Part shown: piece after piece, positions 20,664 through 62,439 of the stretch
How the letters are laid out: every line of letters begins with the position of its first letter
How positions within the stretch are numbered: position 1 is the first letter of the stretch
Origin: Liolophura sinensis
Taxonomy: Eukaryota > Mollusca > Polyplacophora > Chitonida > Chitonidae
Direction of reading: 5' to 3'
DNA length: 64,000 bases
Assembly: GCF_032854445.1 (NCBI RefSeq)
Contig: NC_088302.1
Location: 22,641,788-22,705,787, forward strand
Translations under genes and position numbers: made by a program
Notes under the pieces: generated by a model
What the model saw: the letters and a program-made list of their open reading frames with translations, nothing else
What the model was told of the DNA's origin: nothing
Databases searched by the model: none

Positions 20664-23600
20664 TCACAATTTGACATAAATGACTATAATGTAAATCATG
20701 ATACACCCAACACTTGAAGTTAGAGTGAATGTTCTGGATCCACAGCCGTTATTTCGCGTGTTTACAACATTTTTATCTTTGGGGCTAGATTTTGAATTTT
20801 TGACGTCACTTGTTTTATACTCAGGTGTTGAATGCGGTAGGCCTGCCGATGCCCAGTTGACACCGTCTTCTTTTGCCGATGACACAGTCATCCCGTCGGG
20901 GTTTAACGCCCAATTCGTGATATCAGTGCTTCTTTCACTTGACTGGGTGATATCGTCCGTGTAACTGGTAGGTGGTGACACCGTGTCGACTCCATGAGCT
21001 GACAATGAAGTAACGTCATCCAATCCCAGAGACGACTTCGTTACGTCACTGTCCGTAGTCGATGACGTAGATACCGAACTGGTCTGTGGTAAACTCGATT
21101 CTGAGGAAAACTCGGTAAACTGAGTTTGTGGAATGGTTTGGGTGATTGGTTCCGAAGTGGACACTTCAGATGTTGAAAAGGATGTGACTTTGCTTGTAGC
21201 CGGATAGAGGCTCTCTGAGGAAGTTGCGCTTGTATCTTTGTGTGGAAACTCTTTGGTTATTTCCGGCAGAGTTGCATAACTCATAGAGCCTGATCTGGGA
21301 ATGTCCGAAGTAGAGGTTATCGCCGAGGCTTTACTTGTACCTAATGTAGAAACGGTCTGCCCTTCTTCTGTTGATGATCTTTCCGTGACTAATAGTCTTT
21401 CCGTAGTTAATTGTGTTGAACCAACAGAAGGCGTTTGTGTTGGCTGGGTTTTCCCCCCTTGTGTAATTCTTTCGTTAGACACAGAAGGAGCTGAACTCGT
21501 GCTAGTCTGCACTGATTGCAAATACTCATTCGGAATTTTGGTGTTAGTCAGTTTAAAGCGGATCGGATTGGTTGGAGAATTCGGAACAAATTCTGGAATT
21601 GTCATAAACGCTGCTTTCCCTGGAATGAAATGGAAGGTAACAGTAACTTTAAATAACCAAAAGTCTCCTTCGCCCTGAGCATGAAAAACAGGTTTTGAAG
21701 ACATTGGCCGTAGAGCACTTCTGATTGGCCCGTACTGCATTTGAAGTCCACCAATGGTAGTGTTCTGGAACACAATGATTCTACCGTATATTTCATTATA
21801 GTAAACCCCGTGGAAAGACTTATACAGGTTGGACTGCCTGGGTTGATCGTTAGGTTGGGGTCTCTTGATTTCCTTTGGAACCAAAACCCAAGGGGCTGGA
21901 AACGAACAAATGGTGGAAGTGTTTAGCCATGTATTTTGGTCCAGTATGATGTCAGCAATGGCGGCATGAAGAGCCGACTGAGCCGAATAACTCAACTGTT
22001 TTCCGGTAAAAGCCGTGAAGATACCAAGCTGTTGAGACGGGTACAAAGTCATTCGAGCTTCATAGCCCCTCGCCAATGACAGATGGGCCTTGGTACTCGA
22101 CAGTACGTTGAACTCTGCAATGAGAAGTGAACACATCTTTTTTGAATGCCCTAGGCTATTGTACGTGACGCAATAAAAAAAAAACATTGAACCGTGAAAC
22201 TGTACATCAGTTAGCCATTCATGCACTGAGAAATCACACATCAAGGAAAGTGTACGTAATAAAATGTGACGCCAATAAGAGATGACGGATAGGCCCTATA
22301 TACATCATAGAATGAGAAATCAATCAGATACCACGGTGTACATCATGAAATTAGAAACGACTGAGATACCACGCTGTACATCATTAAATAATAAACGAAT
22401 GAGATACTACGCTTTCACACTATTAACCATACATTGAAAAATCAATGAACTGCAAAACTGTACACATTGCATTTAGAAATCACTGAACCTCCAAACTGTA
22501 TGTCAACCGTGAACCTACACACGCGCACGCATATAGGTTTCCTTTGACCATCTTTGCGATTATATAGCCTAAATCTTGAAAGAATTGTGCAAATATTTAA
22601 GTCCTGCATAAAATTTTATCTGATGTGTAAGTTGGTCTAAAGTTTGTGTGGTACTTATGTGAGTGCATTGCCTCCTTGAATATCTCCACTTGTCGCTGGG
22701 TCACATTTCATCTGTAGACATAAATCTCTGTAACAGGCTTCCATGCACTATTACCGCGCAGTATACAGAATGACTGTTGCCCACTGGCAGTGAATGGGAC
22801 AATAGCTTTGCCATTGTCTGTCAGTTTTCCGGACTTTTATCGGTTTATCATGTTGAATTGAATTTCGGCACAAGCTTCATCATGACGAATTACACATCAA
22901 GTTCAATGTTCGTCCATTAATTGTTGATAAACTTATGGCCGTTCTTATCCTCTTAAAACTATCTTGTGGGATTTTTTTCCAAAAACTTTCATCGTCCTGA
23001 ATTCAAAAGTGATGCATATAGTTTCAGCATAACGGGCTACAGGTCAAGTTCGTGTTTCGTACAGTCTCGTGCATTTTCGGCAAAATTATAACCGTTCTGA
23101 TATGGGCTATGACAATTATTATTCTGGGGCCAGGGCCCAGTATCGCAAAGCAGCTTATGACATATTTTATCTTACATTTGTCGTGCGATATTTTATACGT
23201 CAATGTTAACAAACCATTGTCCTATATGTGCGATATCGTACAAGTACGACATCTTTGTGCAAATAGCCCCTATTTTACAAAACTGTCGGAGCACGTCGCC
23301 AAGCGCATTTACCATGGTAACGTATCTCTTCAGTATATGTTGCTATGCAAAATGCGCCAGGTGCAATTTGCGACTGCTTCGTAAAATATGCTTCTGATGG
23401 CTCAAATCGTTCGGGGACATGTACTGGAAAAATATTTTCAGAATGGTTGTTTAGTTGATTGTTATTTTACGACATAATTATTAATATTTTATTTATGCAG
23501 AAGCAGTCAGCTTGCAAAAGAAACAACGCCTTTATTACTGCAATTTTTCAGAAGCCATCTGCACGGTGTAGGTTAAGAGCCTTTAATTACAGACTTCCGC

Positions 23601-26600
23601 GTGTATGGTGTAATTTGAAGGAAATGTGACCCGTATGTTTGCTTAAACCCTTCACTTACATACTTTAGTTTTCAAGTGTTTTGTAGTATCTTATAGTATC
23701 ACTTGTCTCAGATTTTATCATATTCAAAGATATGGAAAACAGACGAACTTCAAATGTCTGGACATACAGGTTCGCTAACTGAGTCATCAAGGACATAGAC
23801 ATAGAAAAATCATAACTCTTAATTTAAAGGCGGTGACTATCATCGTCGTAACCTATTATTTTAATAACATTTACATCCAGCGAGACTACAAGTGGGTACA
23901 CATGCAGGAAGGTATTCAATTAAGAGCACTCGAAAAATGTAAAGCAAATGGATCACATTATACGTAGCCTCGGTTGACGTATATATAAACTGTATATTCG
24001 TGAACTCAATACATGCTGATTGGCTTGCATGTGTGTAAAACCATACAGCTCATGAAATGTGACCAATAGTTTATTCATTATTTATTTGATTGGTATATTC
24101 AAGTTAAAATTTGGACACATTGTTTGTTTTAACATTGACATAACATTGGTGAGGTGGACGACATTTAATTATTTCTGCAGCAAAAAAAGAAAGATTTAAG
24201 CTATAGTATTTCAGTTTTTCCGCATATACATATAAGCTAACATAATTTTGGTCGTGGACTCCTGATGAGGGCAGACGCGAGCATTACATGTCAAACATAC
24301 CCGAATCACCGTGAACATAGCCATGTACAGATTGAACCAATCGCCAGTGCTATGACAACCATTCGCTTATATACAGAGCTGACTCTTTTAGTCTTGTATT
24401 ATTTACACAGCTTGCTGTAATGGACAGTGTCGAGTCTGAGTCTACGCTAGTTAAACTTTGGGTGTGGCTTACTGAATCAGTTTTTTCTCTAAACTGAGTC
24501 TGGGTCTACCCCAGTTAAACTTTGGGTGTGGCCTACTGGATCAGTTTTTTCTCTAAATTGAGTCTGGGTCTACCCCAGTTAAACTTTGGGTGTGGCTTAC
24601 TGGATCAGTTTTAGTATTTTTTTTTTAGTATTTTATTATTTTTTTCTGAATTCTGGTTTTGGCCTTGTGCCACCTGGTCTATACACGTGAATCGAAGTTG
24701 ACTTTGGTCTTTTTTGTCCATTTCTTCTCTATCGTATATCTCTTACAGAGGACGATATTCTTTTCCTATCTAAAGGACTCAACTTTGTCCCAACCCCATA
24801 TATTGTTCCTCTAGATCTTATGTTGGTTTTTAGGACTTTGGAAAAACACATGAAAACTAAGTTCCACTTACACAATGCTAATAGAGATATTAAGCAAAGG
24901 GAGACTCTTATTAAACGCAAATATCAAATTGCCCAGCCTCTAGCTAATGACTGTGGAAAACTATCTGTACGTAACGAAACGACTCATATCCAATGTGGGC
25001 CCTACACTCACTGGCATGAACAACCTTTCGAAGGGAGAACAGAAGTCTCTTAATAAATTACGCAGGCTCGATCGTGTAATTATCAATACGAAAGTTGATA
25101 TGGACAATACCACTGTAACACAGAATGCCTCTGATGACATTAAATAGGCCACTCTATGATGGTATTCACTACCAGGAAATCTGAATGAATGACCTCAATA
25201 TCACAGTATACCAGGTTGTATGTGAATTATTCAATACAAACCAATTGACAAACGGTGTCAGGAATATCTCTCTGATATTTCCTGCTGCATGCCAACAACT
25301 ATATTTTCTACACAAAATCCACAAAATCAAAGAGGTGCTTGATGAACCAGACCCTACTAGCCCGGTGCTCCATGCGGACCTTAACATCCCTGGACGACCT
25401 ATCATTTCCCAGTGTGGCGCACTGGATAACGCGGGATATCACGTCGCTTTACACCAATTTCAGTGTCTCAGAGATATTGAGTGCACTTGAAGCCGACCCG
25501 TCCCTTTACCATGACATCAAATACGATATCAATTACCCCTCTGATTAGTCACTCCTGAAAATTGCTGGCCTCATTCTAAACTCTAATGAACGGTCCAGCA
25601 AGCGCAGTTGGTAGAGCGTCCGCTTCGGGAGTGGTAGATCCAAGGTCAATCCTAGGTCGAGTCACACCTAAGACTTTAAAAGAGGAAGTTGCAGCTTCCT
25701 CGCTTGATGTTCAACATGAAGGGGATAGTGCAACGGCTGGCTGACCGGTATCAGTATAATGGCTCGGGCGGGGCGCCTTACTTGCCTTCGGTAAGGCGTC
25801 TCAATGAAGCAGCATTAGATAAAAGAGAGGTGGAATTCCGTCCTGCGACAAGGAGGCAGATTACATGCATTCTAAGGATTCCTTTTTCGTCATATGGCTG
25901 AAAAATTGTTCAGTACGACATTAAACCCCGAGCACTCACTCACTCACTCACTCACTCTAAACTCTTAGGAGTTTAACTTTAATGACAGACGTTACAAGCA
26001 GATAGTGGCTGCACCCCAGGGTGCAGTCTCCTCCCCTGAACTTTGCGACATTGCCATTTTCAGGCACATAAATCAGATCCTGAACAAATCTCCGTATCGC
26101 AATAGCATAATCTTTCACAAACGATTCAGAGATGATGGATTTAGTTTCATGAAGTCTAACAGACTTGTGGCTGAACATCTCTTTGAACTTGCGAACCAAG
26201 AACACTCACTCCTTAAATTTACTTATGAGATTTCAAATTCAGAAATGAACTTTCTGGACATCTCTATCTTTAAGAGAGAAAGATTCACGCGGGATTTGAT
26301 CCTTGTGAAATGCTACTCAAAGCCCACCGAAACGTACCAATATCTACACATTAAATCTTTTTTCGGCAGCAAAATCACTAGGTACTGTCGTAACTGCAAC
26401 AATGCGCTGGATTTCTTTAAGAAATCGGCACTCTTCAAATCTAAATTGCTCGTCAGAGGATACTCGGAAACCGGAGTTGATTCCGGTGTCAACAAAGTGA
26501 AATTTGAGGACCGTCCTATGAGACTCCTCCGGAAAAACGAGACTACCAAAGTCGTGTCCAACAAACAAATACATTTTATAATCACTTTTCACAATCGTCA

Positions 26601-29600
26601 AAGGAATATTAGAAACATCCTTAACAAATACTGGCATCTAATCAAAGGAAATAAAGACTCAAAATCCTGAAATTCACGTGAAATCCTACGTAAATCCAAA
26701 TTATAGCATATGCTAACATAATCTTTGTCGTGGACTCCTGATGAGGGTAGACGCGAGCATTACATGTCAAACATACCCGAATCACCGTGAACATAGCCAT
26801 GTACAGATTGAACCAATCCCCAATGCTATGAAAACCATTCGCTTACATACAGAGCTGTCTCTTTTAGTCTTGTAGGCCTACTATTTACACAGCTTGCTGT
26901 AATGGACAATGTCGAGTCTGAGTCTACGCTAGTTAAACTTTGGGTGTGGCGTACTGGATCAGTTTTTTCTCTGAAAACTGAAGTCAAAATGGCTTTGTGA
27001 ATTGGTCTTGTACGGTTTGAGTCTGTATGCGAAAAACAACCCTTTAGCTGAATTATTTAGAACAATAAAGGGTTTGGGTGATCAAGTTAGATAAGTTAGA
27101 TTTAACCAGCGATCTCATATCACGTTTTAACCAATCAGTTATCTTTCTTCAACAATGCATTTTTCACTGGATATACTGGAAATAGGTGCATAGTATGGTT
27201 ATTTGTTCAGGTCAAATCGTATTACCTCGGTAAGAACCATTTGTCCAGCCTAGGGAAATGCCGTCATCTCTCCACTCTTCGGGGGTGTGCGGTTGCCGGA
27301 ATTCCCGCGACGAAGGAGAGTTTTTCTGGACAGGCATGTACGTCCTCTCCAGCACATCACTGGGCACCACCACCCTGCCCTTCTTGTTCCGACCACTCGA
27401 TAGGTGGAAGAGCATCCACTTGGCCATGTCAACGGCGTTACTGACTATAGACTGAGCCCCACCTAGTTTAGTTGCCTCTCTTGAAAGGGAAGGTTTGTAT
27501 TTTAAATCGACTCCTCGTCATATTGATAAGGTATACATTTCTTAGTCCGAGATTTCTCTGACGTTAGGTATAGCAAACTTTTATTCAGTAATGTATGGCT
27601 AATGTACGTGAGAGCGCTCTACAGTTGAACAAAAACTGATAAAGTTGCCGTGACTGTTTGTCAGAGCATTTGAGACAAATAAATATCCGTCAAACACATC
27701 TCCACGGCCTTATACGTTTGCAGTCACACATGCGCCTTAGCTTTTTGTCTGTATGTCGATTTAACGCAAGCACAACATCGATCAGTTATTTCCAAGGTGA
27801 TGTGGTCGTGAGATTTATTGGTAGTGCACAAGGAGACACACTCTACTGCCAGCTTCGACAATATTTGACAAGGGCAGGTAACTGCATCATGTTTTTAAAC
27901 GAAGCGCGCTCTGACGTTGGTTTGGGTCATCCTTGGCTGAATAAAATATTGTCAGATCTAACGTCAGAAAAATCTCGGACTAAGCTTCTCTGCGCAAAGG
28001 CAACCCTGTTCCAAGCTGAATAGAATACCGAGCAATTCATGAGTAATAGTCTAATTTAAACGTTAGCCGCCAAAACGTCTTCGCAAAGGTGGCAAAGAAC
28101 AATAGGCTGTCCAGCTTTTAGGTTCGAATTCCTTTAAGCAGGAAAGGTTCTCCATGGATTCAAATAACTAAACTATATCTAAAATAACAAATATTAAAGG
28201 CATATGTTCACGAAGTCCAGATGTGCTAATTAAATCATAAAGCTGGTTTTATATATCTATATAGAGAAATTTTAGTACATACCAAGGAAAAATGTCTATA
28301 TCAGCTTTGATCGCATGGGTCAAATGGCTTTCATATATGATACGTTGATGTATCTATTTATGTTTTACTTCTACTGAAGTTCAACGCCATGCTCAAAAGT
28401 ATTTCACGAGCATGACGGAAATCAATGTGGAGGGAACCTAATGGAAACCACCGACATTGCAGTAGTGTTTGGGCACTTTTTTCTCAATACTATCTGTTGG
28501 TGTAGAGCGCAGTGTGTGGCATAAAAAAAACTAACTCACTGGAAGTACCGCAGACTCAGTTCCCTCTGTCCATTACTGCTGTCCGGGTAATACGCCGTTG
28601 CTAAGTTACGGTTGTCAGGGCGAAGAGAACTGAAGAAAGTAGATTTGGACATTTTAAGTGGGCGAAAGAGTTCCCTGGCAACAAGCTCCTCCCACGAGGC
28701 ATTCGATAGTTTCTCAGTGACGTAGGCGGCCAAACTGTACATGATGTCGCTGGTGATGTAACTCTCCCGAAATTTGCCGGCCCCTCTGATGTAGCGCATC
28801 TTACTGCAAACAGACACAAAATTGATTGTTTGTTTGTTTGTTTTTTTTGTTATTTTGGGGGGGGGGGGGGGTCGTTTGTTTTTTGTCACTTTTCTTTTGT
28901 TGTTTAACTCTATACTCAAGAATGTTTTTTTACTTATACGGTGGCGGCAAGTATATTATCAGGATGCAGGATATCAGGATGTCAAGAGTAAAAAGTAACA
29001 AGTAACCGACCTTTCGCATTTCTATCACAGTTGTAATGACTTAGGAGGAAGGGAGGGGGGGGCATGACTTAGATCTATGAAGTCGTTATTTCCAAAAATA
29101 CATCCAGCATGTCATGCCATGCCGTGCTGGAGGAAAGTTTCATATACAGTAGGGTCCCCGAACGTCTAAATAGTGTATACATGCCCATATGATGTCTCTA
29201 CAGTGTGAATGTATACATGTACACCGATAAACGTTTATCCCTTCTCCATTAATTTTCATTTAAACCGGGGGTAGCATTCAGTTCAGAGTGCGGCGACTGC
29301 GATAAGGTCATTTCGGATGGGTTGCGGTGAAAGTGAGGTGGGGGGGGGGGGGGGCGAGGGTGTACAGGGTATTGAATATCTGACCCCCTCCTGCTGTCTC
29401 TGTGTTTTTTTTCCCTCACTGTGTAAAGTGTCTATATAGTGTTTGTGGGTGAGAAACGAGGTACTGTTAATTCCGAATTGGGTGGTTTGTGGGGGCTTGA
29501 AATTTTAAAGCCAGCTTTATTTAGCGACTGAAAACCTTCTGTGATTAAGAAATCTAGTGTAGTGTAATTCATATATCGTTGGTTTAAGATAGCTATCACT

Positions 29601-32600
29601 GAAATATTAATCGCAGACTTCTGTAACGTGAAAATATCCACGGTTAAAACAACTACATCGAGAGAGGGTCTATATATATATACACGTTCAGCCAAGTTCA
29701 AACATGACGCTATGATGTTATCACGACAACGTTGTGAACTCGGCTAATACGTCATCTAAAGACTGAACGTAAAAAACTCTCTCCAAATGTGCATGGTATC
29801 AAGTAGACTTGGACTTAAAATACATCATTACAATCATTTCCTTCACGTGAAATGTAATGGGCTGGCTCATGCAGTCAGACGAATAGATGTCCATAGATGT
29901 AGCTGAGGATTTTGTTTGATTTGTTTATTCACTTGATTGATGTGCAATGCATACTCCTAGCTTAAAATCCCTTTGTGCAAGAGGGTGTAGACTGTATGCT
30001 AAGTCTATATGATCGATCGAGATCTTGGTGATTTACAAACAGCTTAGGCTTACGATTCCTTCGGTCCCATTATTGGCGGAAGGCAATCGGTCTTCAGCAA
30101 ACGTTAGTCGCGCCAACGGCCACACGCACGGGCGTGTTCCACCGCTTATTGCTACGAAACAACCCGCAGGCAGTTAGAGTGAAAAGATAAACAAATTCCT
30201 GACCAAACCCAGGTTTGAACTTCCACTTTGTGTGCCTGAGATTGAAAGGAAAGCGCTCCTGACCACCAGACCACGACATGTTTCCAAGTTGCTGAAGATG
30301 GCCGTGTTTATGAGGATATATCAATAGGACGGTCTGGGGTTGATCCCCCAAAGCCATTTTTGATTAAGTCAAACTTGAAAAACTCCCCACAATGCTTAGT
30401 TTTTGGCGGATTTTGACGGCCAACCTCTGTCAAGAATTATATGACTGCTTACTCTCAGAATGGGCAAGGTAGGCTCCGATGTTTATTGGCCATGGAACGT
30501 TTGGGGCTGTTACAGCACTAAACTTGAACATTATCGTTTGAAAATCGTCTAGTCTCTCAACTGTGTTGTTGATGAAATGGCTACAAGTCACTGCTTTCAG
30601 AGAAAATAAAAAACATGGTTGATTTTGAGCGACTAGCATGCAGCTCATTACCGTGCATGTGTAGATAGCTTAGTGTGTGGCCAAATAACGATGTTTATAC
30701 TCAATGTTAAATATATTTAATTTTGGGCGGGGTAAGTTTATTCTTTGATGGTACAGGCCATTCTGTGTACTTTTAAACCAGTAAGAGCAAAATGCATGCG
30801 TTCTCTTCTGAGATGCTCACCGTCTTGACTCAGCTTACACTGAAAGATGGGAAATTCTGTGTATACGTTCCTGTTTATTTGGGTTTTCTTTCTTGGCTTA
30901 CACTTACAATTTCAACCGCTTTCTGGAGATAAAATCCTGGAACACCATGTAATTATGACGCACTAGCCCCATCCTCTGGCCCAAAAGGTCCTCCGAGCTG
31001 GCCTGAGACGTTCGCACTTTGTCACGGAAACGAAATTTGCCTGGGATAACTTTGCTTAAAGGCGTTGTTAAGGTAAATCTGAAAAGAGTCAACAAAGAAA
31101 TAAAAGTGTGATACATGATGTTACTAAATGTTATCCCACGTACAATATTTTATTATCGACAACTTATATCGGGTGGGCATAAAAATGTGTCGTACGTTGA
31201 CACTCAATATCTCCGAAACCCTCTTACATCAGCTTCTAAAAATTTACACATTCAATAGCCACTATGTCCTAAATATACAGACCAAATTTCAATTTCATCC
31301 TTTAAGATATCTGTTCATGGAACCACAATCAAAATAGAGTCAAAAACGCATGTTCCGGACATTTCAAAGTGATATTCTACCTTGTTTTGCTTGAAAAGGT
31401 GATTAAATGGTCTTCCATCTTCTCGGTAGACGGCGCGCAAACGTTTCTTCCATAAACTGATTGAGTCCCGAATCTCCTTAAGCGTATTTTTTTCCCAGCA
31501 GTCCTTGATGCGTGCTTTTAGTTCATCCTCAGTGAATTTTTCCGTACGACCGTCATAGGTCCCTGACAGATGATGCAATGTGGGTCACCGGAACGTGCAT
31601 TTTCATTTTGACCCTGTGTACAGACTACTCAAGCTATGACCTTGAAACTTGGTCAGTATATTAACAAAATCATGCCATTTGAATGTCTAAAGTTTGAAAG
31701 GGTTTGAACAAAGGACAGTGGGGCAATGCATCATCAAAGTACGGTCCATTTTTCATGTCCACCCAATATACTAGCATGACACACGATCTGAATACTGATT
31801 TCACTCATTCGCCCAGAACATACATTGCGCCTTTCCAATATCATTGACAACTGTTTCTCTTTGCACATGGTTGACAGCTGGTATACGAATGTCTATTTCG
31901 ACGCATACATTAACAAGTTTTCAGCCATATGACGACGAGGGGTCATTAAGTGTGTCTTCTTGTGGCACGACGAGTCCATGCCGCCAAGTATCATGCCGAA
32001 GTATCATGCCGAAGACACCAGACATGACACCCCGACTAGTCACATTATACTGACACACGGCCAGCCAGTCCTGATTCCCTGCTCTAATATCGCAATACTG
32101 AGCGCCAAGCAAGGCAGCAACATATTCCTTTTTTAAAATCTTTGGTATGAGATTAGTGTCGTAGAACCTCTTCTCACAGTACAAGGTTTTACGGGACTAT
32201 TATTGTACGGTATTTAGGTTACGCGTAGCCCCAAGCCGGTGTCCCAGCTAACTTTGGTTACGTGCTACCGTTCCAACAGAATTCCTGCAGTATACGCCTT
32301 CTTAACATAAGTGTACGTGCACGAGTTGATGTCGTGTACAATTGCTAGCTAGTAAGTGTAGATAATCAATATATGTATCTCAGTTGCGTTTTGACAGCAG
32401 CTGTTCATATATCCAACGTGGCGACGAATTTAAAGTCCCTAGCCCCGGAATTGATGCTGGACCATATTTGCTGACAAGAGAACTATACCCAGTGTAAAAC
32501 TTAGGGTGAAGGCGTGTGATGCAGTAGCCCTGGCCCACTAGGTTTTACAGTAGTAATTTGTGACGTTGGTTAAAATCGTCGCACAACATACAGGATCTAA

Positions 32601-34533
32601 CAAATGCTGCATGGTGGGCGATATAGAAGAAAAACGAACTAGTATGTCCGAACGGGTACATGATTCCGAACAGGACATTTTCCAAATATCCATCGTTCTC
32701 ATTCTACCATGCTTTCACGGTTGTTATTGTGCACAGGTTTAAATGCGATGAAAGCGCCCTTTTACACAGATATACAATCAGAGCTACTTTATGCTCATAA
32801 GAACATTTTGGTAACCTTTTGTAACTTTTTTTGTTTTTCATACGAATCATACTTGTTTGTTATTAGAGCAATCGCTGTCTGCACATGTTCCATAACCATA
32901 ATGTGAGCGCCTGTGTCAAGAGATCATGCATTTCTTGAGTCCCAACACATTCAAATGTACCAGAGAACATTGATTTAGATGCACGAAACTTTAGCTGGGT
33001 ATCACACTGTGAACCCAACCGATTACAGCTTACCCCTGCTGAAATAAGCCACCTGGTGTTAGCAAGATAGAGGTCCCTTTGTTACAACCACAGAGGAGCT
33101 AGTGGTGGGAGGTTATCTGGCGTTCACCCGCTGGTGTATCACCGTCTCCACACAAGCGTCCCAAGCGATTCCTAAGAACCTTCACCATTCCGTTACCATT
33201 CACTGGACGAATACTTGGAAACGTATATATAACACTTTGTATGTATGCAACTGTCCGTTGGGTATTTAATCTATGGTTGACTTAGGTATATACCGAATAT
33301 ACCTAATATAACCAGTATACACTAGCTCAACTGACATTATAGCACGCGCTGCTCATGTTTATTGCAGATTTTTATAGACAAGGCATTGGATGAGATAAAC
33401 AAGTCTTCTTGAACAGAACAAATGTCGATGAGTGCATGATATTCGTTTTTCAAGTTTAAATAATTGCAAGCAAAACCTGATGATAAAGAAAGATAGATGT
33501 CTACGCCTGACGATTATTCGCCAATGAGCATCGTCAGTTAGCCTATATCCGACACTCCAACTTACTTGTATTTTCACCTTTCAGCAAGAAGAAACCATGC
33601 AATAAGAAAAAGATTTTGAGTTTCAGTACATAAACTTATGTATCGTGAGAAAGAATTTAAAACGGCAACGTATTGTGTCAACGCCCGTATCGAATTATTG
33701 CCAGTGTTAGTATTGTTAAGTCCACGTGAGCTATATAGATTTATATATATATATCAGAAGACGTATTGACTGACACTTCCACATGGAACAAACTTTGACT
33801 TGCTTAATTTACGGAGGCTAAACAATTATCACAGGAACTTTGGAACTAGATTTCAGTCCATGAACAATATAGGTAGTCGTAGTGAGCATAACGGTCCAGA
33901 ACTTACAGTGGTTAGCGGGATGATAATGGTTTTTCTACCGTAGCCAACAAAAAATGATTTAAGAAGTAATGCTATCTTCACTGGTGCCTATTTACTTATT
34001 TATGTAATGGTGATGTGTTATCTTGAACAGCCAGCCTTGCCCTAGGCATGGCAGCTGTCGGTGATCGCTGACACAGACCGACATAGATACCCGGACACTC
34101 TGTGTACGTCGTACGGTACACAAAAACACCCCACAGGAGGAAGTCGAAGTGTACATGACATACATGCCTATACATATTGAACAAGTATATGTACAAGTCA
34201 CAAAACTGATGCATGTAAAGGTCTATGGCTATCTTAGTTCATTAAAGGATGATTTCAAATGAAACCAAGACAATTTTATTTTATGTGGTATGATGGCAAG
34301 AATTTTTTTTTGTTTTTGTTTTTTGTGCTGTTTCAATCCCCTCGATGTCGTTCAGAGCAAGATGGCGCTGTTTCTAGGTAACTGCCACTAACAAGCGTAT
34401 ATCGTCGCCATTTTCCTGGCTTGTATGAAGCCATCAGCTGAAGATTCATTCAAACTCAAGAATCGGGTTCCTGCTATGTCCAAAACACTCTTACGCTTTT
34501 TCATGTTTTGCCTTTTGCCTATTTCCATTTTTG

Positions 34534-34590
<57 letters not shown>

Positions 34591-35932
34591 CATTCTTTAA
34601 ATCATGCTCTGCAACAATGTCAGTATCGTGAATTTCATAAACTTTATGCAAAACATAAGAAGAGTATTTTTATTGCATTTTATTGACATTCTAACTCATC
34701 CTTATAACAGACAGTAGACCCTTGTTTTCATCCGTGTATCATTATATATCCTATAGGCCCTGAGTCGTACTAGTAAATACCAGACTACAAAAATAGCCTT
34801 GGGAGGTTACGCCTCAAACACCAACCAACTGTAGATCTATATAATTGAACTTGATTTATATAAGCTTTCCTGGATACAGTAGCAAATATATACTATCACG
34901 TGTAGTTATTTACACCACACCTTGTGTCTGTATTTTGCATATGATGATCCAGATATATGTTTGACTTTTCTAGCCGAGTAGAAGCAGAAAATTGCCATCA
35001 TTGGGTGGACTCGTCCTGTTTTATGTTGGCATATCAAGCCGTGCTAAACTAATTTATTACGTACATCTGCGTAGTAAAAGCCCTGTATATGACTGGGCTA
35101 GATTTATGTTAAAGCAATTTCCATGCCTGTAACAAAGATGTTTGATAAATCCGTAGAAACAAGATTATTTGATCATTTTGCATGGGAAGGTTTTCCAGCA
35201 ACAAGCGGAGGGTCATCGGTTTCCCCCGGCCAATGCCCGGTTTCCTCCAACCATAATGCTGACCGCCGTCGTATAGGTGAAAAATTCTTGAGTACGGCGT
35301 AAAACACCAATCAAATAAAATAAATAAATAAATCGATCATTTTGAACTATCTACATAAAGAACGGTCAATGTATTGAGATGCTCAAAATTAAGTGCCGCA
35401 AAATCGTCTGGTAATTGTTTTATACGATATATGAGTATTACATGAGATATGAATGAACAATTAAGGCTTGGTGTTCTTCAATGATAATAACATGAACATC
35501 ATTAACATAACAGAAAAAATATTTGCAATATATTACAAATTACTTTTTATAAACCGTTGCATGAAAATTTCAAAAGATGTTACACAAAACTCACCGAGGA
35601 TGCTCATGTAAAAGTTTCGCCAGCAAAGTTGAAGTGAAAGTTTGGGTAACTGGTCCGATGCCAAACAGGGTTTTCTCCGTAACGGGTCTTGGATGCTTCA
35701 TGTCGGTGATTCCGTACCCCCGGGATAACAAGACACGCCCTTTGTGGACTACAGACAGGGCCATGCCTGGGATGGCACCCTGTTCTCCACAATCCAACAA
35801 TCCCGTCATCATGGAATCAATCGTACGGCTTTTGTCGATCGACAAAGTCTTCTTCTCTTTGGCGTTGGCATTGTTACCCAACGTACAAAATATTAGGGTG
35901 CAAACGAACCACAGCAACTTTGGCCAAAACAT
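20664..35932 (-). CDS. Gene A: secreted beta-lactamase-like pseudoenzyme with Ser/Thr-rich stalk and hydrophobic tail
   Basis: Five exons on the minus strand: 35932-35595, 31078-30908, 28803-28540, 27479-27226, 22114-20664. They join in frame to 825 residues, with the same phases (2,2,2,1) as gene B. A signal peptide covers residues 1-24 (hydrophobic LLWFVCTLIFCTL). Residues about 40-540 match the serine beta-lactamase/penicillin-binding-like fold of gene B, but all three active-site motifs differ: PVTQ at 94-97 replaces SLSK, TSD at 187-189 replaces YNN, and the HTG box is gone (region 344-360, with about 4 extra residues). Residues about 544-795 are a Ser/Thr-rich, probably O-glycosylated stalk. 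The last 20 or so residues are hydrophobic after NNGCGS, which fits a GPI signal or a tail anchor. Function is unknown. The family includes LACTB and the oyster shell protein gigasin-6. The long frame and clean splice sites argue against a pseudogene. Confidence 0.85.
22290..22510. repeat. Degenerate tandem repeat of about 55-60 bp in gene A intron 4
   Basis: Three to four diverged units share the pattern 'tacatcat..aaat.agaaa..a.tgagatac.acgctg'. The array is old and lies just upstream of the last exon's acceptor on the minus strand. Confidence 0.45.
22511..24235. other. Gene A intron 4, part without recognised content
   Basis: AT-rich intronic sequence. Overlapping short frames at 23024-23397 on both strands fall in a GGGCCCAGTATCGCAAAGCA-containing stretch that looks like a decayed non-autonomous repeat, but I could not find its ends. 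Confidence 0.35.
24262..24292 (+). ncRNA. Hammerhead-ribozyme-like motif, left pseudo-LTR
   Basis: The run CTGATGAG, a short stem II region, GAG, a 3-bp stem CAT/ATG with loop TAC, then GTC, has the order of a hammerhead core (CUGAUGA, GAA, UH). PLE pseudo-LTRs are known to carry hammerheads. The usual GAAA box reads GAGC here and stem II is weak, so it is probably degenerate. Confidence 0.4.
24432..24612 (+). repeat. Three tandem 64-bp units extending the left pseudo-LTR
   Basis: Units start at 24432, 24496 and 24560, each beginning gagtctg.gtctac and containing gttaaactttgggtgtggc and ggatcagttt. The right pseudo-LTR has only one unit. Confidence 0.8.
24739..26670 (+). pseudogene. Penelope-like reverse transcriptase, frameshifted and interrupted
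   Basis: The N-terminal part (24739-24935) gives SLTEDDILFLSKGLNFVPTP-like sequence. The frame then shifts near 24935 and meets a stop at about 25145. RT fingers and motif A follow in other frames (25262-25545, LYFLHKIHK to DITSLYTN). The SINE at 25585-25955 separates motif A from motif B. The rest is open for 221 codons (26005-26670) and includes AAPQGAVSSPEL (motif B), FRDDGF (catalytic motif C; PLEs use RDD) and NFLDISIFK. No GIY-YIG endonuclease was seen. It cannot make a full protein. Confidence 0.85.
25585..25955 (+). mobile_element. tRNA-derived SINE nested in the Penelope-like RT
   Basis: The head resembles a tRNA: A-box-like ggtagagcgtccg and B-box-like ggtcgagtcac. The body includes gtgcaacggctggctgaccg and ggctcgggcggggc. 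The 3' end is a (CACT)n run. It is flanked by a 10-bp target duplication, tctaaactct, at 25575-25584 and 25956-25965. Confidence 0.8.
27541..27984. mobile_element. MITE-like element with inverted terminal repeats, gene A intron 3
   Basis: The ends are inverted copies of about 27 bp, starting cttagtccgagattt at 27541 and ending aaatctcggactaag at 27984, with one mismatch. Weaker similarity continues to about 55 bp and includes ttttattcag on both sides. There is no transposase frame; the 121-codon frame at 27658-28023 crosses the right terminus and is spurious. CTT next to each end may be the target duplication, but palindromic overlap makes this uncertain. Confidence 0.7.
28855..28965 (-). repeat. 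G-run and SINE tail fragment in gene A intron 2
   Basis: A run of about 15 G on the plus strand (28858-28872) is followed by a minus-strand SINE fragment (28895-28965) containing actcaagaatgtttttttac and ttatacggtggcgg, the usual tail sequence. Confidence 0.55.
30105..30360 (-). mobile_element. tRNA-derived SINE, minus strand, gene A intron 2
   Basis: On the minus strand the sequence has an A-box-like tctggtggtcaggagcgc followed 40 bases later by a B-box-like agttcaaacctgg, so it has a tRNA-like head. The B box and the body match neither of the other two SINE types in the window closely. No target duplication was found. Confidence 0.5.
31165..31770 (-). mobile_element. Deleted Tc1/mariner-type DNA transposon in gene A intron 1
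   Basis: Inverted ends of about 30 bp: left tatatcgggtgggcat at 31165, and right, read inward on the minus strand, tatattgggtggacat from 31770. Both continue with a run of A, then tg and gtac. TA-rich bases at each end fit a TA target duplication. Inside, on the minus strand, is a transposase C-terminal piece (31315-31578). The N-terminal and catalytic parts are missing. Confidence 0.75.
31315..31578 (-). pseudogene. Transposase C-terminal fragment (Tc1/mariner, DDE superfamily)
   Basis: The 87-codon frame contains EDELKARIKDCWEKNTLKEI and SLWKKRLRAVYREDG, a pattern I recognise from the end of DDE transposases of the Tc1/IS630 type. It lies between inverted repeats and has no room for the upstream catalytic domain (the right end is 190 bases away), so it is a deletion derivative. 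Confidence 0.6.
32200..34535. other. Gene A intron 1, no recognised content
   Basis: AT-rich intron sequence. The minus-strand frame at 31921-32184 and others up to 34214 show no recognisable domain or splice logic. Confidence 0.4.
34536..34584. repeat. (TA)n microsatellite
   Basis: About 24 uninterrupted TA units in gene A intron 1. Confidence 0.95.
35190..35335 (+). repeat. SINE copy, 5' truncated
   Basis: Contains ccggccaatgcccggtttcc, accataatgctgaccgccgt, cgtataggtgaaaaattctt and gtaaaacaccaatcaaat followed by (AAAT)n. It is one of the better-preserved tails and lies upstream of gene A exon 1's donor. Confidence 0.85.
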
Positions 35933-37789: not shown

Positions 37790-37930
37790 TACGTGAGAAA
37801 GTCTGCCAGCAACTTGTGGGCGTCATGGGCTCCCCCCTCCCCCGGCTTCTGCCCGGTCATCTAAGTGAAATATTCTTGACCACGGCGTAAAACACCAATC
37901 AAACAGGTAAATAAATAAATAAATAAATTG
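37790..37930 (+). repeat. SINE copy, 5' truncated
   Basis: Contains ccccggcttctgcccggtca, agtgaaatattcttgaccac, and ggcgtaaaacaccaatcaaa with an (AAAT)n end. The 32-bp minisatellite begins immediately after it. Confidence 0.8.
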
Positions 37931-37954
37931 TTTAATCAACTATTCATTTGTCCA

Positions 37955-38976
37955 GTCATCCATTGCATTGCCATCTCATTGTTTCAGTCATCCCTTGCAG
38001 TGCCATCCCATTGTTTCAGTCATCCCTTGCATTGCCATCCCATTGTTTCAGTCATCCCTTGCAGTGCCATGTCATTGTTTCAGTCATCCCTTGCATTGCC
38101 ATCCCATTGTTTCAGTCATCCCTTGCAGTGCCATCCCATTGTTTCAGTCATCCCTTGCATTGCCATCCCATTGTTTCAGTCATCCCTTGCAGTGCCATCT
38201 CATTGTTTCAGTCATCCCTTGCATTGCCATCCCATTGTTTCAGTCATCCCTTGCAGTGCCATCCCATTGTTTCAGTCACCCTTGCATTGCCATCCCATTG
38301 TTTCAGTCATCCCTTGCATTGCCATCCCATTGTTTCAGTCATCCCTTGCATTGCCATCCCATTGTTTCAGTCATCCCTTGCATTGCCATCCCATTGTTTC
38401 AGTCATCCCTTGCATTGCCATGTCATTGTTTCAGTCATCCCTTGCATTGCCATCCCATTGTTTCAGTCATCCCTTGCAGTGCCATCCCATTGTTTCAGTC
38501 ATCCCTTGCATTGCCATCCCATTGTTTCAGTCATCCCTTGCAGTACCATCCCATTGTTTCAGTCATCCCTTGCAGTGCCATCCCATTGTTTCAGTCATCC
38601 CTTGCATTGCCATCCCATTGTTTCAGTCATCCCTTGCAGTGCCATCCCATTGTTTCAGTCATCCCTTGCAGTGCCATCCCATTGTTTCAGTCATCCCTTG
38701 CATTGCCACCCCATTGTTTCAGTCATCCCTTGCAGTGCCATCCCATTGTTTCAGTCATCCCTTGCATTACCATCCCATTGTTTCAGTCATCCCTTGCATT
38801 GACATCCCATTGTTTCAGTCATCCATTGCATTGCCATCCCATTGTTTCAGTCATCCCTTGCAGTGCCATCCCATTGTTTCAGTCATCCATTGCAGTGCCA
38901 TCCCATTGTTTCAGTCATCCCTTGCATTGCCATCCCATTGTTTCAGTCATCCCTTGCATTGCCATACCATTGTTTA
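37955..38976 (+). repeat. 32-bp minisatellite, about 32 copies
   Basis: The unit runs cattgccatcccattgtttc then agtcatcccttg (32 bp). Units are nearly identical and differ mainly at one base (cattg or cagtg), often alternating to give a 64-bp dimer. One unit near 38275 is shorter. Because 32 is not a multiple of 3 and the unit lacks a stop, all three plus frames stay open for about 280-350 codons and encode the same rotating peptide. These are not genes. Confidence 0.97.
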
Positions 38977-38999
38977 ATCTGTCATTCAATTATTTATTT

Positions 39000-53567: not shown

Positions 53568-56500
53568 TTACTGTGGTTTTACTCTTGAAAAAGTCGGAGG
53601 GTCTTTGGAATCGAAGGACAACAGCTGCAGCGAGGCGGCCTTTGACTTTCCCGAGGGGACGTTGAACATCACAGAAACGGCGTTCCAGAGTCGAACAGCT
53701 CCTTTCCCTAAAGCTATGAACTGGTTGGGGAGTGCGCCTGGATAAAGGTCCCATATGGAAATACCGTAAGTCATCCTCAAACAGTTCGTACAGTTCACGT
53801 CTTTGTTCTTGGTTATATCCAAAGCACCGTACAACGGGAGTGAGTACTGGCCAACGTAAGTGTCAAGTGGTTTTGTCGGTGTAAGATCCTTTTTTATTGG
53901 CCCATCTCTACCGGAGGGGCGCGTCTCCTTCCACGGTGCCGGGAAGGTGCAGACACTGGTAGTGTTGAGCCAAGGCTCATACCCTAGGACGAGATCGGCG
54001 ATGAAGGACTGTAGTGCGGTCCGACTAAAAACGCTCGGATCTTCTCCATTCAAGCCGATAAAGATACCCAGGTCGACGTCAGGATACAGCATAAGTATGG
54101 CTGTATAACCAAATGTAGAGCCAGTGTGAGACACAGTCTCCAGGCCTACAAGTGAAAACAATGAAGTGTTCCAGTATGTTAAAGGAAGCTTCGTCCCATT
54201 TGTCTCATCTTATATACCAAAAGGCTTGACAAGAGGCCGCATTTCACCGGTTACATGTCACCATATGTCAATTAACACTCAAACTGCCGTCATTGCTCTG
54301 GCTTTACTCTCTAATGTGTACGTCTTTTATACTGAATAGTCACATTTCCTCCTGTTTACACACCTGTTTTGAACGTAGAGGTCTAAATATTGTCCTCAAT
54401 ACTAACTTCCTTAAAAAACACATAGGAAGTATATAGCAAACTCTATTGGTTTCTTTTCCCATAAAAAGCTAAATGTTTGTTAAGTCCCTGCATGGAACAC
54501 ACTGTGTACACATGTTCAGACATTTGCAAATACCTCAATTTTCTAAATGTTGACTTAAGGCTACAGAGTTGTTAACATGTAATGCCGGGTTTATTTAAGG
54601 GATGGAAAGCATGATGGTAATATTATTACCTGATATATAGAAGACCAGCTAAGGTTGTTTTTTATTTTCTCATTTGATCAAAAAATTACTCGGTTAATTG
54701 TTGCTTGGAAACTGTTTGGTATAAACTACATCGCGGCTATTCGCATGGTTATATCTCTTTCATTCTGATATTTCTACGTTTCAGGTTTCCATGTAGCTTT
54801 GCCCTTCAATTTTTTCCACCCATACCTCGATAGTAACCGTTCCTCCAGGCTGCAGCATAGCGGTCCACGACGAAGGTGGTCGGGAATTCCGGCACGGTGA
54901 TGTATTTGTTGATGGATGACGTCATGGTGACCTTGGCCTCGTGGTTTTTGCGAATAGTCCTTGATGACATCACTCGGTGGCCAGTTCCGTTTTTACCTTC
55001 ACTTAAGTGGAATTTGATCCATTTGGTCATGTCTACTGCAGTTGACATGATGGCACCAGAACCGCCAAGCTTCCCCCATTGTCTGCAAGTTATCACCAAT
55101 AAAAAAAAACAACAAACAACAAAACGTTAGCCTTATTATTTGTCTTCATGACAACTTATGATGACGATGTTGTCAACCAGATATCATTTATGTGTATTTG
55201 TCAGCATATATACAATACTGAATATGAAAAAAGCAACTACCTGCTAGTTTCACCTAGGCCCTACCTCATGTGGGCGTTTATAATTGTCACGTGGAAAAGT
55301 AGGTTGTTTACTCAAAGCTATGGGGTTTCCTCGTTGTCTTCGTGTAAGTGAAAAATATTTGAGCATGATGTTAAATAGAGTCAATCAATCGTCACAAGCC
55401 CTAAGCCTGTGACTCTCCCTTGATAATCATCCTCAAATGAAACCACCTCTTAAAGCAAGAATCGGCATTACTGCTTTGGTATGACCGATTTTTGTTGTTG
55501 GTCGTATTCTGGTTTTCTTGCAGGAGTCAAAGATCTTGTGGCAACAAACTACATGTATACAGTGAAAAACATCTACTTACTACTGTAATTTATCACAAAA
55601 GTGTTTATAAACAAACATGAATTAATCATGTAGTTTTTGAAAGTCATAACAATCAATCAACCAGCCAAAGTTTTAATAAAAGCAAACAACCATTCCACTA
55701 ATCATTCAACTAATTATTTGTCAGCATTCCAGGTGCTAGAGGAATTTGTAGCCTCATACCGTCATATAGTGATATTCATTTCCTTTCCATTTGTAAGCCA
55801 CAAAGTAAGAAAAAAAAACACTCGTTTACTTCAACATAAAAATTGTACAGTAGCCTCTGTGGCACGCCAGCGCGGCGCAATGACACAGAAGCCTCTCAGC
55901 ATTGCGGTCTGTGTGAGTTCAAGAACAGCTCGTGCTGGCTTCCTTTCTGGCCATACGTGGGAAGGTCTGCAGCAACCTGGGGGGTGCTTGTGGGTTTCTC
56001 CCACCCTAATGTTAGCAGTCATCGCATAAGTGAAATATTCTTGAGTACGACATAAAACACCAATCAAATAAATAAATACATTGTACATGTATTCCACTGA
56101 CGGGTTGGTGTGTTGATTATGACTGAGTATTTCGATCATAACGGAATACATTCTAGCATCACTCAGACAACAGGATTTTCTGTCAAAATCAACAGACTAC
56201 TTTTTTCACTGTGTAGGGTTTCAGGACGCCAGCCATGCATCATAAATGACCTTCAGTTGACCTTGTCTGCTCTTACCTGGACAGTTCATTAGGAACCTCT
56301 GCTAGCTGACCATCTCTGTCGCTCTGGTAGCCAACGGCCACGCCCGTCTCATTAGGCTCAAGAGCGTGAGCGAAGGTGGTACGTGACATTCCTAGGGGTT
56401 CGTACAACTCTCGGCTCATCAGATTCTCCCAGGTATCTCCCCCTAGAACCTCTGTGATGTACGTAAGCAGACCATACACGATGTTGTTGTAGTAAAAGGT

Positions 56501-59500
56501 GGACCTGAACTCGCCCTTGGGTTTGATGTACTTGAACAAACTGAAACAAGCACAATATTCGGTTAATTTGTGAATAGACGATCTAAATAACGTATGTATG
56601 TTTGTGTTTTTACGAAGGAGGAACGCAAATTTTAAAACCACCAACATCGGTAGCATCAGTTTATCGTTTCTCATTGAAAGTCGATTCAGGTTCTAGCTGG
56701 AAAGGGCATCACGTCTCGGAGCGGAAATATACAATAATCAATAATAATACAGGGTCACCGCTGGTACAAATCACTTTTACGGAACAGTTCTCTTTTCGAA
56801 TCTTTGTAGCTCAATTCAGATAAGTCTTTGGATTTTATGTGTAGAAGAACCCTGGTTCTATGTAGATTAAGACTAAACCATACTCAGATAACTTTTTGGG
56901 CTTACGGCCCAACCCATAGAGAGCTACGTACCCGGCCAGTTCTGCCCTGGTCATGTCCTTTAGGCGGACGTAGTTGTGCGAGGGCAGTCCGAGACGGTGT
57001 GACATCAGGTCCTGTATGGTGGCGTACTGATTCAGCTGAGCATCGTTAAAGCTGAAGTCACCCTTGAGGATTTTAGTCACAGGCGTGTTCACCGTCACAC
57101 TGAAAACGTTACAAGATTTTTTAAAAAAATAATAAAAAGTTCTATATAGTATTTGGAATACTTCGGTTCCCGTCAACCTGTGTCACTTCTCTGTGACTGG
57201 CTGCGTCATGTTTGCATGCTTCACGTTCCCCTTGCAACCTGTGCTACTTTTCCCTTCCAATCTGTGCCATGTTCCCATTGCAACCTGTTCCCCTGATGAC
57301 CTGTGTCATATTCCTCTGATAACCGGTGCCACGCTCCCTGACAGCCTGCGTCACGTTCCCATGACAACCTTGCCACGTTCCGCTTGCAACCTACATCATG
57401 TTTCCCTGACTGCGCCAAGTTCCACTGCCAACCCGTGTCCCTTTCCTCTTATAACCTGAGTGACGTTTCCCTGACCTGTGACAGTATGATGTTTCTCTGA
57501 CAACCTGAGTCACGTTCCACTCATATAACCTGCACATATACAGATATGCATGCTGTAATACTGTTCATAAATACTTTATAATACTCTTTCTCTATGTGGA
57601 AAAGGTGTGCATGTGTCTGGTTTCTCCCCTGCCGCGTAAACAAAGTCCACAGCTCCGAACGATAATACTAAACTTTGATGGCTGCAAGGCAAATAATCTA
57701 TAGCAACAGTACACTCCTGGGAGAAGAAGTAGTAAACAGAAGTAACTTTCACAAAAACTTCGTCAATCCAATTTCTTGCAACTTTTTTTGCAAAAATGAG
57801 ACAGTCTAGTTTATAGCTCCATAAAATAGCTCCATGGGTTTCCCAATCCATGACAATCCTATCCGTTTAAGGTTTATTTTAGATCTTAAACCACAGATTT
57901 CGAGTTAAAATTCTGTTTCATAAATAAAGTACTTTTTTCCAACTATTTATGGCTAATTACAATTTGCGTAATATAGCACTAATGCCTAATACTTATAACG
58001 CCTCGATCAACAGTTAACAGAAGAAAGAATACAGATAAATGTCCAGTTGTATAACACATTAGTTCCTCTTTAACTCACAGACAGGCAAAATTCAAAAAGA
58101 AGAAAAGCTTTTGGCATTTCTCACAGGTATGTGTATATCTTCATGACAATCGTTTGAAGACTCCGAGTTCAAACATTGCTTTGCGCCATATTCAATAATA
58201 TACGAGCGTGAACCTGCATGAAACCCTAGGTCTGCTCTCACAAGGACTGTCATGCCGATATATTGTACACTGCTGGTCATGATAGTTACATGCTAAGAGG
58301 GCTTCATATACGATGGCCCTGACGTTTTATATATGCCTAAGATTTTACGACGTACTGACGTATAATACATATGTTGCGCATACAAATGCCCAAACAGCTT
58401 TATTCCGCATGTCTAGTCGCTGATGACCACATGTACAAACTGCGTTATAGCTAAGTACTTAAATGGCTAGGAATGCTGTAGGTCAGGCTACGAAGCCTTG
58501 GTGGTTTTTCAATGCCCAGTGGAAAGGTCACATTGCCATATCAAGCGTCATAAAGCCTCAATTATTCTATGGATAATAAACCCGTAACACCAAATAATGA
58601 CCAGCATAATGAGCAGGGCGGTACATAAGCACTTATATCAGATTACATTATTTGAGTAGCCTCGTGCGTAATGGTGTCAAACTGAAGTATATGTCGTAAA
58701 CTACACGAACGACGACCTTTGGCCAGTTACTGATGAACTTTCCCACCATGTGACGCAGAAATGCACATCACATAATTGGCCACACGAGGTATGTCGAGAG
58801 TACATTGTCACCAACATCCCATTAACAGTGATAGCGGCAAAGATAATGTAGAACAGTCAAAACAATACAGAGACGTAAGTAAATGATTACCTCAAAAAAA
58901 AAAAAAAACAAAAAAAAAACAAAAAAACAAAAAAAAAACAAACAAAAAACAAAACAAGAAATGACATTAACAAAATTTTAGAGACAGAGAAAGACTTCTT
59001 TCATTTTGTGCTTGCTAATTCACATTAAATACAAGACACTGCAGCCTTTCAAGGTGCATATTTACATGGATGTATTTTGTCGGTGTCGATTGATGTTTGT
59101 TGACAGCTCCCCCCCCCCCGCCTCCAACCACCATCCCCCCCGGGCAAATCTTATAATCAACCGATTTAATTAGAAACATTTCCTTGTTAATTTGTCCTCC
59201 ACTCATTAATTAATCACCTGACAAGTTAACTTAGTTCAACAGCTTATGTCTTTAGTATGCCTTATTTATATTGTTTGTTCATTCGCCTAGTAGGAGTTTA
59301 ACATCGCTTTCGCGGGTTCATTCATTTATATCACTGCGGTGCGTCCTAGACCGACCGACAGGCAGACAGACAGGTTGAAGTTTTAGGCGTTCCATTCATT
59401 AGAACGGGGGCCTCCGTGTCTCAGTTGCTAAGCGCGCTAGAGCAGCGTAATGACCCAGGAGCCTGTCACCAATGCGGTCGCAGCGAGTTCAAGCCCAGCT

Positions 59501-60477
59501 CAGGTTGGCTTCCTCTCCGGTCGTAAGTGGGACGGTCTTGCAGCAACCTGCGAATGGTCGTGGGTTTCCCCCGGGTTATGCCCGGTTTTTCCTACCATAA
59601 TGCTTGCCGCCGTCGTATAAGTGAAATATTCTGGAGTACGGCGTAAAACATCAATCAAATAAATAAATAAATAAATCATTTTATATCATTCGTATAAAAA
59701 AACCTAATGTACTGTTGTCAGCATGTATACGACTAATAATTTTTTATTTTATTTTATTAATTTAATCACGGTATTACGCCACACTTAAAAATATTTTACT
59801 TATATGACTGTGGGAGATCCGGGAGGAAACGCACGACCATACGCAGGTTGCTGACAGGCATGACCACGTTAGAGAGGAGAGGGAGCCAGGATGAGCTGGT
59901 CTTTAACTCAGGGCGACCACATGGGTGAACTCTATCAAACAAATCACCCTAACTGCCGATAGTTATCAGGGAGTTCGGATCAAGATGGAACTTGGATAAT
60001 AAAGTCTGTAACTACAATGGAATCCTGACCAAGCCCATGCCACCATGGAGTTAATTTTCGATAGCATTCAGTCATGCAACAATTAATCTGACAAAGAGAA
60101 CCCGCTAAGAAGACTATTCGCTAATTATTGTCTAATCAGTGGTTCACTTACTTTGGTAATTTGTCCAGAACCTTCATGAGCAGTGTCGTGGTGAAACCTT
60201 TGCTTAGAGAGGCGATCTGGAAGAGCGTATCTCGTGTGGCGGGTATGTTTTTCTCACGGTCCGCCATACCGTACCCTTTCTGTACTATCGGCTGACCGTC
60301 TTTCACCACTGCCAGAGTCACTCCAGAGATCTTTGGTTTACAGGCCAACATGGCTCTCACCATTTCGTCCACTTGCCCCTCCAAGGCACGAAAATCTTGA
60401 GCAGATTCGGTCTTTTCAGGTAACACAACAGCTAGGAAAATGATCACGATTACAGCCGGGTCAAACTTCGACACCAT
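53568..60477 (-). CDS. Gene B: secreted serine beta-lactamase-like protein with intact active site
   Basis: Five exons on the minus strand: 60477-60152, 57099-56932, 56540-56277, 55082-54826, 54145-53568. They join to 530 residues. A signal peptide covers about 1-26 (AVIVIIFLAVVLP). The fold is that of class C beta-lactamases/penicillin-binding proteins, as in LACTB and oyster gigasin-6. The nucleophile motif SLSK is at 90-93, YNN at 182-184 and HTG at 345-347, so it should be a catalytically competent serine hydrolase, substrate unknown, probably extracellular. Intron phases (2,2,2,1) equal those of gene A, so they are paralogues by duplication. It ends about where gene A's Ser/Thr stalk begins. 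The stop (CAG TAA) overlaps a good donor, ACA|gtaagt, so a spliced longer form is possible. Confidence 0.9.
55855..56080 (+). mobile_element. SINE copy with partial tRNA-like head, gene B intron 3
   Basis: Contains cgcaatgacacagaagcctc, a B-box-like gagttcaaga, gctggcttcctttctggcca, tacgtgggaaggtctgcagc and acaccaatcaaataaataaa. It matches the full copy at 59405 from the head onward. Confidence 0.88.
57175..57535 (+). repeat. Degenerate tandem repeat of about 28-29 bp in gene B intron 1
   Basis: Repeated 'acctgtgtcacgttccc.tgac' units, strongly diverged, about 12 copies. They start about 75 bases upstream of exon 2's acceptor on the minus strand. Confidence 0.75.
57540..59404. other. Gene B intron 1, no recognised content
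   Basis: AT-rich. Includes an A-rich (CAAAAAAA)n stretch at 58890-58960 and a C-rich run near 59107-59140. No exon or domain was recognised. Confidence 0.45.
59405..59675 (+). mobile_element. Full-length tRNA-headed SINE (best copy in the window)
   Basis: The head shows an A-box-like cagttgctaagcgcgctaga and a B box, gagttcaagcc, about 50 bases apart. The body runs ggttggcttcctctccggtc, gtgggtttcccccgggttat, gcccggttttt and ccataatgcttgccgccgtc. The tail gcgtaaaacatcaatcaaat is followed by (AAAT)n. All other copies of this family in the window align to its tail, usually 5' truncated. Confidence 0.88.
59738..59920 (-). repeat. SINE copy, minus strand, next to the full copy
   Basis: ttaatcacggtattacgcca, tgactgtgggagatccggga, ggaaacgcacgaccatacgc, gagccaggatgagctggtc: a diverged reverse copy, giving an inverted SINE pair in the intron. 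Confidence 0.78.
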
Positions 60478-62149: not shown

Positions 62150-62439
62150 TTTCCTCCCTTCAGAACAGAACTCACACATAGAATAAATGTGATTCTCTGG
62201 GTTGTGCTTCTTGATATGAAAGAATACAACGTCTGGCATTCTATGATGACCCATCATCTAGCTGGAAAGATGGTAGGCCTGTTTTCTTTTCTTTTTGTCT
62301 CCAGGCAACATGCTTTACGATTTGCTTTAGGCCAGATGATGAGTTAGATGTGTCCTTATTCGGTGGTTTAAGCATGCCCAATGGGCAATCTAAATTTGCG
62401 GTTGATCATCAGTTCCGCTGGCGATTTCAGATTGAGTTT

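Follow-up and report, generated by a model that had tools for sequence, protein, structure and literature searches.

A putative secreted pseudoenzyme of the PBP/serine beta-lactamase fold (PF00144) in the chiton Liolophura sinensis

A 64,000-nucleotide stretch of contig C8 of the Liolophura sinensis genome (hereinafter referred to as the window) was found to contain two related five-exon genes on the minus strand, designated gene A and gene B (Table 1). The exons of gene A join to a CDS of 2478 nt including the stop codon, corresponding to 825 amino acids, and the frame is stop-free across all 825 codons. All four introns have GT-AG borders, with phases 2,2,2,1. Gene B lies 18 kb upstream of gene A on the same strand and encodes 530 amino acids, with the same intron phases (2,2,2,1) and the same exon order. 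The PF00144 profile matched gene A with 121.3 bits (E 6.6e-35), which is above the curated cut-off of 27 bits, and gene B with 169 bits (E 2.3e-49). The identity between A and B was 34% over well-filled alignment columns. The original prediction of a five-exon, in-frame gene of 825 residues, sharing its intron phases with gene B and having built up no stop over about 2.5 kb of coding sequence, was borne out by this model. Its claim that A aligns with B throughout held for the domain part, but residues of about 546 to 825 have no counterpart in the 530 residues of B.

Exon profiles made from B and the other paralogues, without A, were run against all six frames of the 64-kb window. The exons of gene A were recovered well beyond chance, with E-values of 4e-10 to 1e-26, and besides the exons of A and B the best match in the window reached only E 0.37. 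Since only these exons matched the profiles, no alternative exon with an intact SxxK or another intact motif was found in the window. A second copy of gene A was likewise absent from the best-scoring candidates in the genome.

Several other features were noted in the window and on the contig. Intron 4 of gene A contains a 233-codon open reading frame on the plus strand (25969-26670), which appeared reverse-transcriptase-like by eye and had no Pfam match. A tandem array of a short repeat (37919-39002) and a second repeat array (47363-47768; AWFIWLKHGSYG-type reading) are each open in all three plus-strand frames. The stop codon of gene B, in its last exon (53568-54145, minus strand), is overlapped by a GT (CAGTAA), so that a further exon is conceivable. 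An integrase-core (rve) match on the minus strand (62393-62755) scored 27.4 bits and falls short of the Pfam cut-off (32.6). A KH-domain match on the plus strand (14353-14670) scored 65 bits and probably marks an exon from a gene for an RNA-binding protein. On contig C8, eight matches to PF14830 (Haemocyan_bet_s, the molluscan haemocyanin domain) were found in one array, compared with none in 14 control genomes, which fits a probable molluscan origin of the genome.

Table 1. Features of genes A and B and motifs 1/2/3 of all family members modelled. Positions refer to the window, except where a contig (C) is named; stalk and tail borders are approximate.
Feature	Position	Strand	Motifs 1/2/3	Remarks
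Gene A			PVTQ/TSD/none	
Gene A exon 1	35595..35932	-		Signal-peptide-like N-terminus; motif-1 region, with PVTQ in place of SxxK
Gene A exon 2	30908..31078	-		
Gene A exon 3	28540..28803	-		Motif 2 (YxN replaced by TSD)
Gene A exon 4	27226..27479	-		
Gene A exon 5	20664..22114	-		Motif-3 region (HTG lost, four residues longer), domain remainder, stalk, tail
Gene A Ser/Thr-rich stalk	20772..21506	-		In exon 5; residues 546-790; judged by composition
Gene A hydrophobic tail	20667..20711	-		In exon 5; final 15 residues; resembles a GPI signal or a membrane helix
Gene A stop codon	20664-20666	-		TGA, in exon 5
Gene B	53568..60477	-	SLSK/YNN/HTG	Exons 60477-60152, 57099-56932, 56540-56277, 55082-54826, 54145-53568
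P1			SLSK/YNN/HSG	
P2			SLSK/YNN/HGG	
P3	C8:39186000-39205999		SLTK/YNN/HAG	Frame broken in exon 2; exon 5 ends early
P4			SVGK/YNN/HSG	
P5			SVTK/YSN/HNG	
P6	C7:39228000-39242999		SLST/FSK/QSG	Open frame
P7			SLTK/YNQ/HWG	
P8			SVTK/YNN/HSG	
P9	C9:27496000-27515999		SLTE/ESK/KRG	Open frame; strongly acidic insert near the C-terminus

At least 11 family members were found in the genome (609 Mb, 632 contigs): A, B and nine paralogues (P1 to P9). The paralogue loci were obtained by genome searches and recovered once more with A as the query; only the best candidates were scored in this search, and eleven is therefore a lower bound. P1 to P9 were modelled from genomic DNA by script-fitting under the assumption of the A/B intron phases, with two junctions reset by eye in the P5 and P6 models; other PF00144 matches, on C5, C11, C2 and C9 (11.68 Mb), were left out of the models. 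An open reading frame was present in eight of the nine paralogue models, the exception being the motif-bearing P3, which looks broken, through either decay or misassembly. Gene A has the domain, the exon order and the N-terminal hydrophobic segment in common with B and P1 to P9, and with most of them the C-terminal tail as well; the phases 2,2,2,1 were found in B, but were imposed on P1 to P9 as a modelling rule. The N-terminal hydrophobic segment was seen in 10 of the 11 models (15-residue mean hydropathy of at least 1.89), the eleventh, P3, having been given its shortest start. The C-terminal segment was seen in all models but B and P3 (9 of 11; 15-residue mean hydropathy of at least 2.06).

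In the family alignment of A, B and the nine paralogues, SLSK and YNN of gene B stand opposite PVTQ and TSD in gene A, and the HTG columns read STK in A within a segment that exceeds that of the ten other members by four residues, which reproduced all three replacements claimed originally. No [KH][ST]G was found anywhere in the motif-3 segment of A (EFNVLSSTKAHLSLARGYEA). Two residues are lost from each motif: Ser and Lys (motif 1), Tyr and Asn (motif 2), His and Gly (motif 3). The motif-1 serine is missing from A only, being kept in all ten other members, and eight of these ten keep both SxxK and an HxG third motif. Of the patterns that mark an active serine PBP/beta-lactamase or LACTB enzyme (SxxK, [SY]x[NT] and [KH][ST]G), gene A contains none; read strictly, the second is also departed from by P7 and the third by P2, P3, P5 and P7. 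An SSTK in the motif-3 segment of A could be taken for a displaced SxxK, but this reading was dropped because the stretch does not lie at the motif-1 position. Among solved structures, the best relative of A by sequence was the PBP-related 2qmi (E 4e-15), presumably an active archaeal enzyme, and in this PDB sequence match its SITK and YLN stand opposite PVTQ and TSD.

The lysine of motif 1 is needed for catalysis in the PBP/beta-lactamase fold. In PMC2266909, the SxxK serine is described as being acylated, the second motif as contributing to catalysis and the third as serving substrate docking. Gene A lacks all three motifs, and to the extent that sequence can show, canonical catalysis by its product is therefore excluded.

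The last 280 or so residues of A (about 546-825) form a Ser/Thr-rich stalk and a hydrophobic tail, with 22% Ser and 18% Thr in residues 546-790. A Ser/Thr-rich stalk of such length (some 250 residues) is absent from the ten other members, and a genome search with the stalk/tail part gave a single match, namely itself. The open frame of the stalk had no stops in 245 codons, whereas each of the five alternative frames contained 5 to 23. A codon-usage test lent no coding support to the stalk (synonymous score of -0.045 in frame 0 and 0.127 in frame 2); the same test separated the domain poorly too (0.049 in frame and 0.038 in one reverse frame). Judged by hydropathy and composition, A may have the layout of a GPI-anchored surface protein (a putative signal peptide, a mucin-like stalk and a C-terminal tail), and the stalk and tail would point rather to a tethered cell-surface protein than to the shell or mucus matrix protein suggested originally. 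Because N- and C-terminal hydrophobic segments are found family-wide, the secreted, tail-anchored state may be the usual one of the family, with the stalk added by A.

Retention of conserved positions was compared over 60 columns that are invariant in six motif-bearing members, the reference excluding B, as the sister of A, and P3, as broken. Gene A keeps none of the five catalytic columns and 45 of the 55 others (Fisher 5e-4), and B keeps all five together with 45 of the 55. The corresponding values were 2/5 and 43/55 for P6 (p 0.09) and 2/5 and 44/55 for P9 (p 0.08). When all eight motif-bearing members served as the reference (45 invariant columns), A kept 0/5 catalytic and 37/40 other columns (Fisher 5e-5), and leave-one-out controls kept 80 to 98%. 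With an 85% cut, A kept 0/6 catalytic columns and 63/84 others (Fisher 5e-4), the latter amounting to 75%, at the lower edge of the range given by leave-one-out controls (75 to 94%); P6 kept 2/6 and 58/84 (p 0.09) and P9 2/6 and 63/84 (p 0.05). The loss in A is thus concentrated on catalysis, whereas the contrast is weak for P6 and P9.

A neutral model with substitutions only, transitions twice as frequent and seven ages tried was applied to A. At 0.05 substitutions per site it already produced 5.0 stops on average across the 825 codons, and the joint value for no stop in 825 codons together with a change in six catalytic residues of a B-like ancestor was at most 8e-9 over the seven ages. In view of this joint value, constraint on the gene was most likely still in force when the catalytic residues of A were replaced. 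Between A and B, pS was 0.80 (saturated) and pN 0.48, which would indicate constraint only for the whole path between the two genes. In the four pairs tried, synonymous sites were saturated (dS infinite for A-B, A-P9 and B-P1) or nearly so (dS 3.3 for P7-P8), and no dN/dS could be derived, either for the pairs or for A alone. The original interpretation of gene A as a maintained pseudoenzyme rather than a dying copy was supported by the retention of 0/5 catalytic against 45/55 other columns, the intact frame and the neutral model.

In the family tree, A and B were sisters with ultrafast bootstrap/SH-aLRT values of 98/97 (98/98 in another run), and five of the eight inner branches were weak. 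The longest end branches were those of P6 (2.28), P9 (2.28) and A (1.97), followed by one of 1.69; that of B was 1.19. The longer branch of A fits relaxed as well as changed constraint. Judging by their motifs and open frames, P6 is likely a second and P9 a third pseudoenzyme. An old pseudoenzyme clade of A and P9 was considered because the identity of exon 4 of A is slightly higher to P9 (41%) than to B (39%), but it was disfavoured (p-AU 0.035, with A placed beside B at 98/97). A group of A, P6 and P9 was rejected (p-AU 0.0014), and a grouping of P6 with P9 was not (p-AU 0.09). The fewest motif-loss changes on the tree shown were three. Since A with P9 is weakly disfavoured and the group of all three rejected, a single event for all three is disfavoured, and the losses in P6 and P9 were apparently separate events from that in A. 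The groups were chosen after the motifs had been seen; subject to caution on this account and on account of the long branches, motif loss occurred at least twice, probably three times.

The metazoan LACTB family was gathered by the patterns SxxK, [SY]x[NT] and [KH][ST]G, and a catalytic serine is described in all of its proteins (PMC2266909). Compared by description, gene A shares with this family an animal PBP/beta-lactamase-like domain, and its paralogues show the three motifs in the same order, but A has none of the three and differs further in its signal-peptide-like N-terminus, stalk and hydrophobic tail. Motif-less animal members of the PBP/beta-lactamase-like family were not reported in the titles and abstract openings of the literature matches listed, many of which are unrelated. 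Pseudoenzymes as a kind and PF00144 as a fold are already known; new here are the family of at least 11 members and the finding that P6 and P9 are also short of motif residues. An oyster shell matrix protein with a beta-lactamase domain is presumably the one named Gigasin-6. The main text of PMC9456362, on Gigasin-6, contains no word beginning with lactamase, so that the link of that name to the fold is presumptive. The oyster protein itself has been described (PMC5824581) as having a beta-lactamase domain and an unknown function; it resembles A in being molluscan and in a domain of the same name, a likeness by description only.

We consider it probable (about 0.78) that the product of gene A is a pseudoenzyme of the PBP/serine beta-lactamase fold, secreted and probably tethered to the membrane, with a binding or scaffold role at the surface. 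The kept fold residues, the secretion-like N-terminus, the stalk and the tail together suggest a surface-displayed binding or scaffold domain. The product would be unable to form an acyl-enzyme. Its N-terminal hydrophobic segment would act as a signal peptide, and the stalk would be O-glycosylated and keep the globular domain off the membrane, with a GPI signal or a single membrane helix serving as the anchor. Binding without cleavage, whether of a peptide, of a glycan or of an active family member, could take place in the reshaped pocket or on the domain surface, and the protein may act as a receptor, a decoy or a scaffold. Candidate ligands would be those typical of the family (D-amino-acid peptides and esters), glycans, or an active sibling.

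That A is instead a dying copy, which lost constraint too recently for a stop or frameshift to have arisen, would be consistent with its long end branch and with the codon usage of the stalk, which was not coding-like in the test made, and the broken sibling P3 suggests that copies in this family may die. Such decay is nevertheless very improbable, given that six catalytic residues have changed and yet 45 of the 55 other invariant columns stand, that the neutral model yields a joint value of at most 8e-9, and that GT-AG is kept at all four introns. We also regard it as improbable that A is active by another mechanism, with a different nucleophile (a nearby Thr or Ser, or the SSTK that reads SxxK by chance) serving a new reaction. 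Most invariant fold columns are kept, and the motif-3 segment does read LSSTKAHLS; from the alignment and from what is known of the fold, however, this SSTK should not sit at the place of the catalytic serine, and the Lys, Tyr and His columns have changed as well. An artefact is hardly credible, whether from a gene model that missed motif-bearing versions of exon 1, 3 or 5 or from copies confounded in the assembly: in 64 kb the exon profiles match the exons of A and B only, exon 5 has a single right-phase acceptor within some 30 bases inspected by eye, and the best-scoring genome candidates include no second A copy.

A special case that overlaps with the surface-binding pseudoenzyme is a regulatory partner, in which A would assemble with B or another active member and control it. 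A and B are sisters 18 kb apart on one strand, and filament formation raises the catalytic activity of human LACTB, a relative, with interface mutants losing part or all of it (PMC9815587). By analogy, this gain of activity in filaments makes self- or cross-assembly of A a reasonable rival, but B lacks the hydrophobic C-terminal tail found in most paralogues, so that A and B may differ in place. Regulation of this kind seems unlikely.

The pseudoenzyme reading can be extended to the family, though only as a doubtful proposal. Surface PBP-like hydrolases of this mollusc may have turned at least twice, probably three times (A, P6 and P9), into non-catalytic binding proteins that could recognise D-amino-acid or peptidoglycan-type ligands, much as peptidoglycan recognition proteins occur in both catalytic and non-catalytic forms; A would be presented on a mucin-like stalk of its own. 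The sister pair of A and B, 18 kb apart, provides a ready comparison for testing a non-catalytic role. If a member lacking the Ser, Lys, Tyr and His has been maintained, and two more in one genome have lost motif residues, this fold would have been kept in animals for a purpose other than catalysis.
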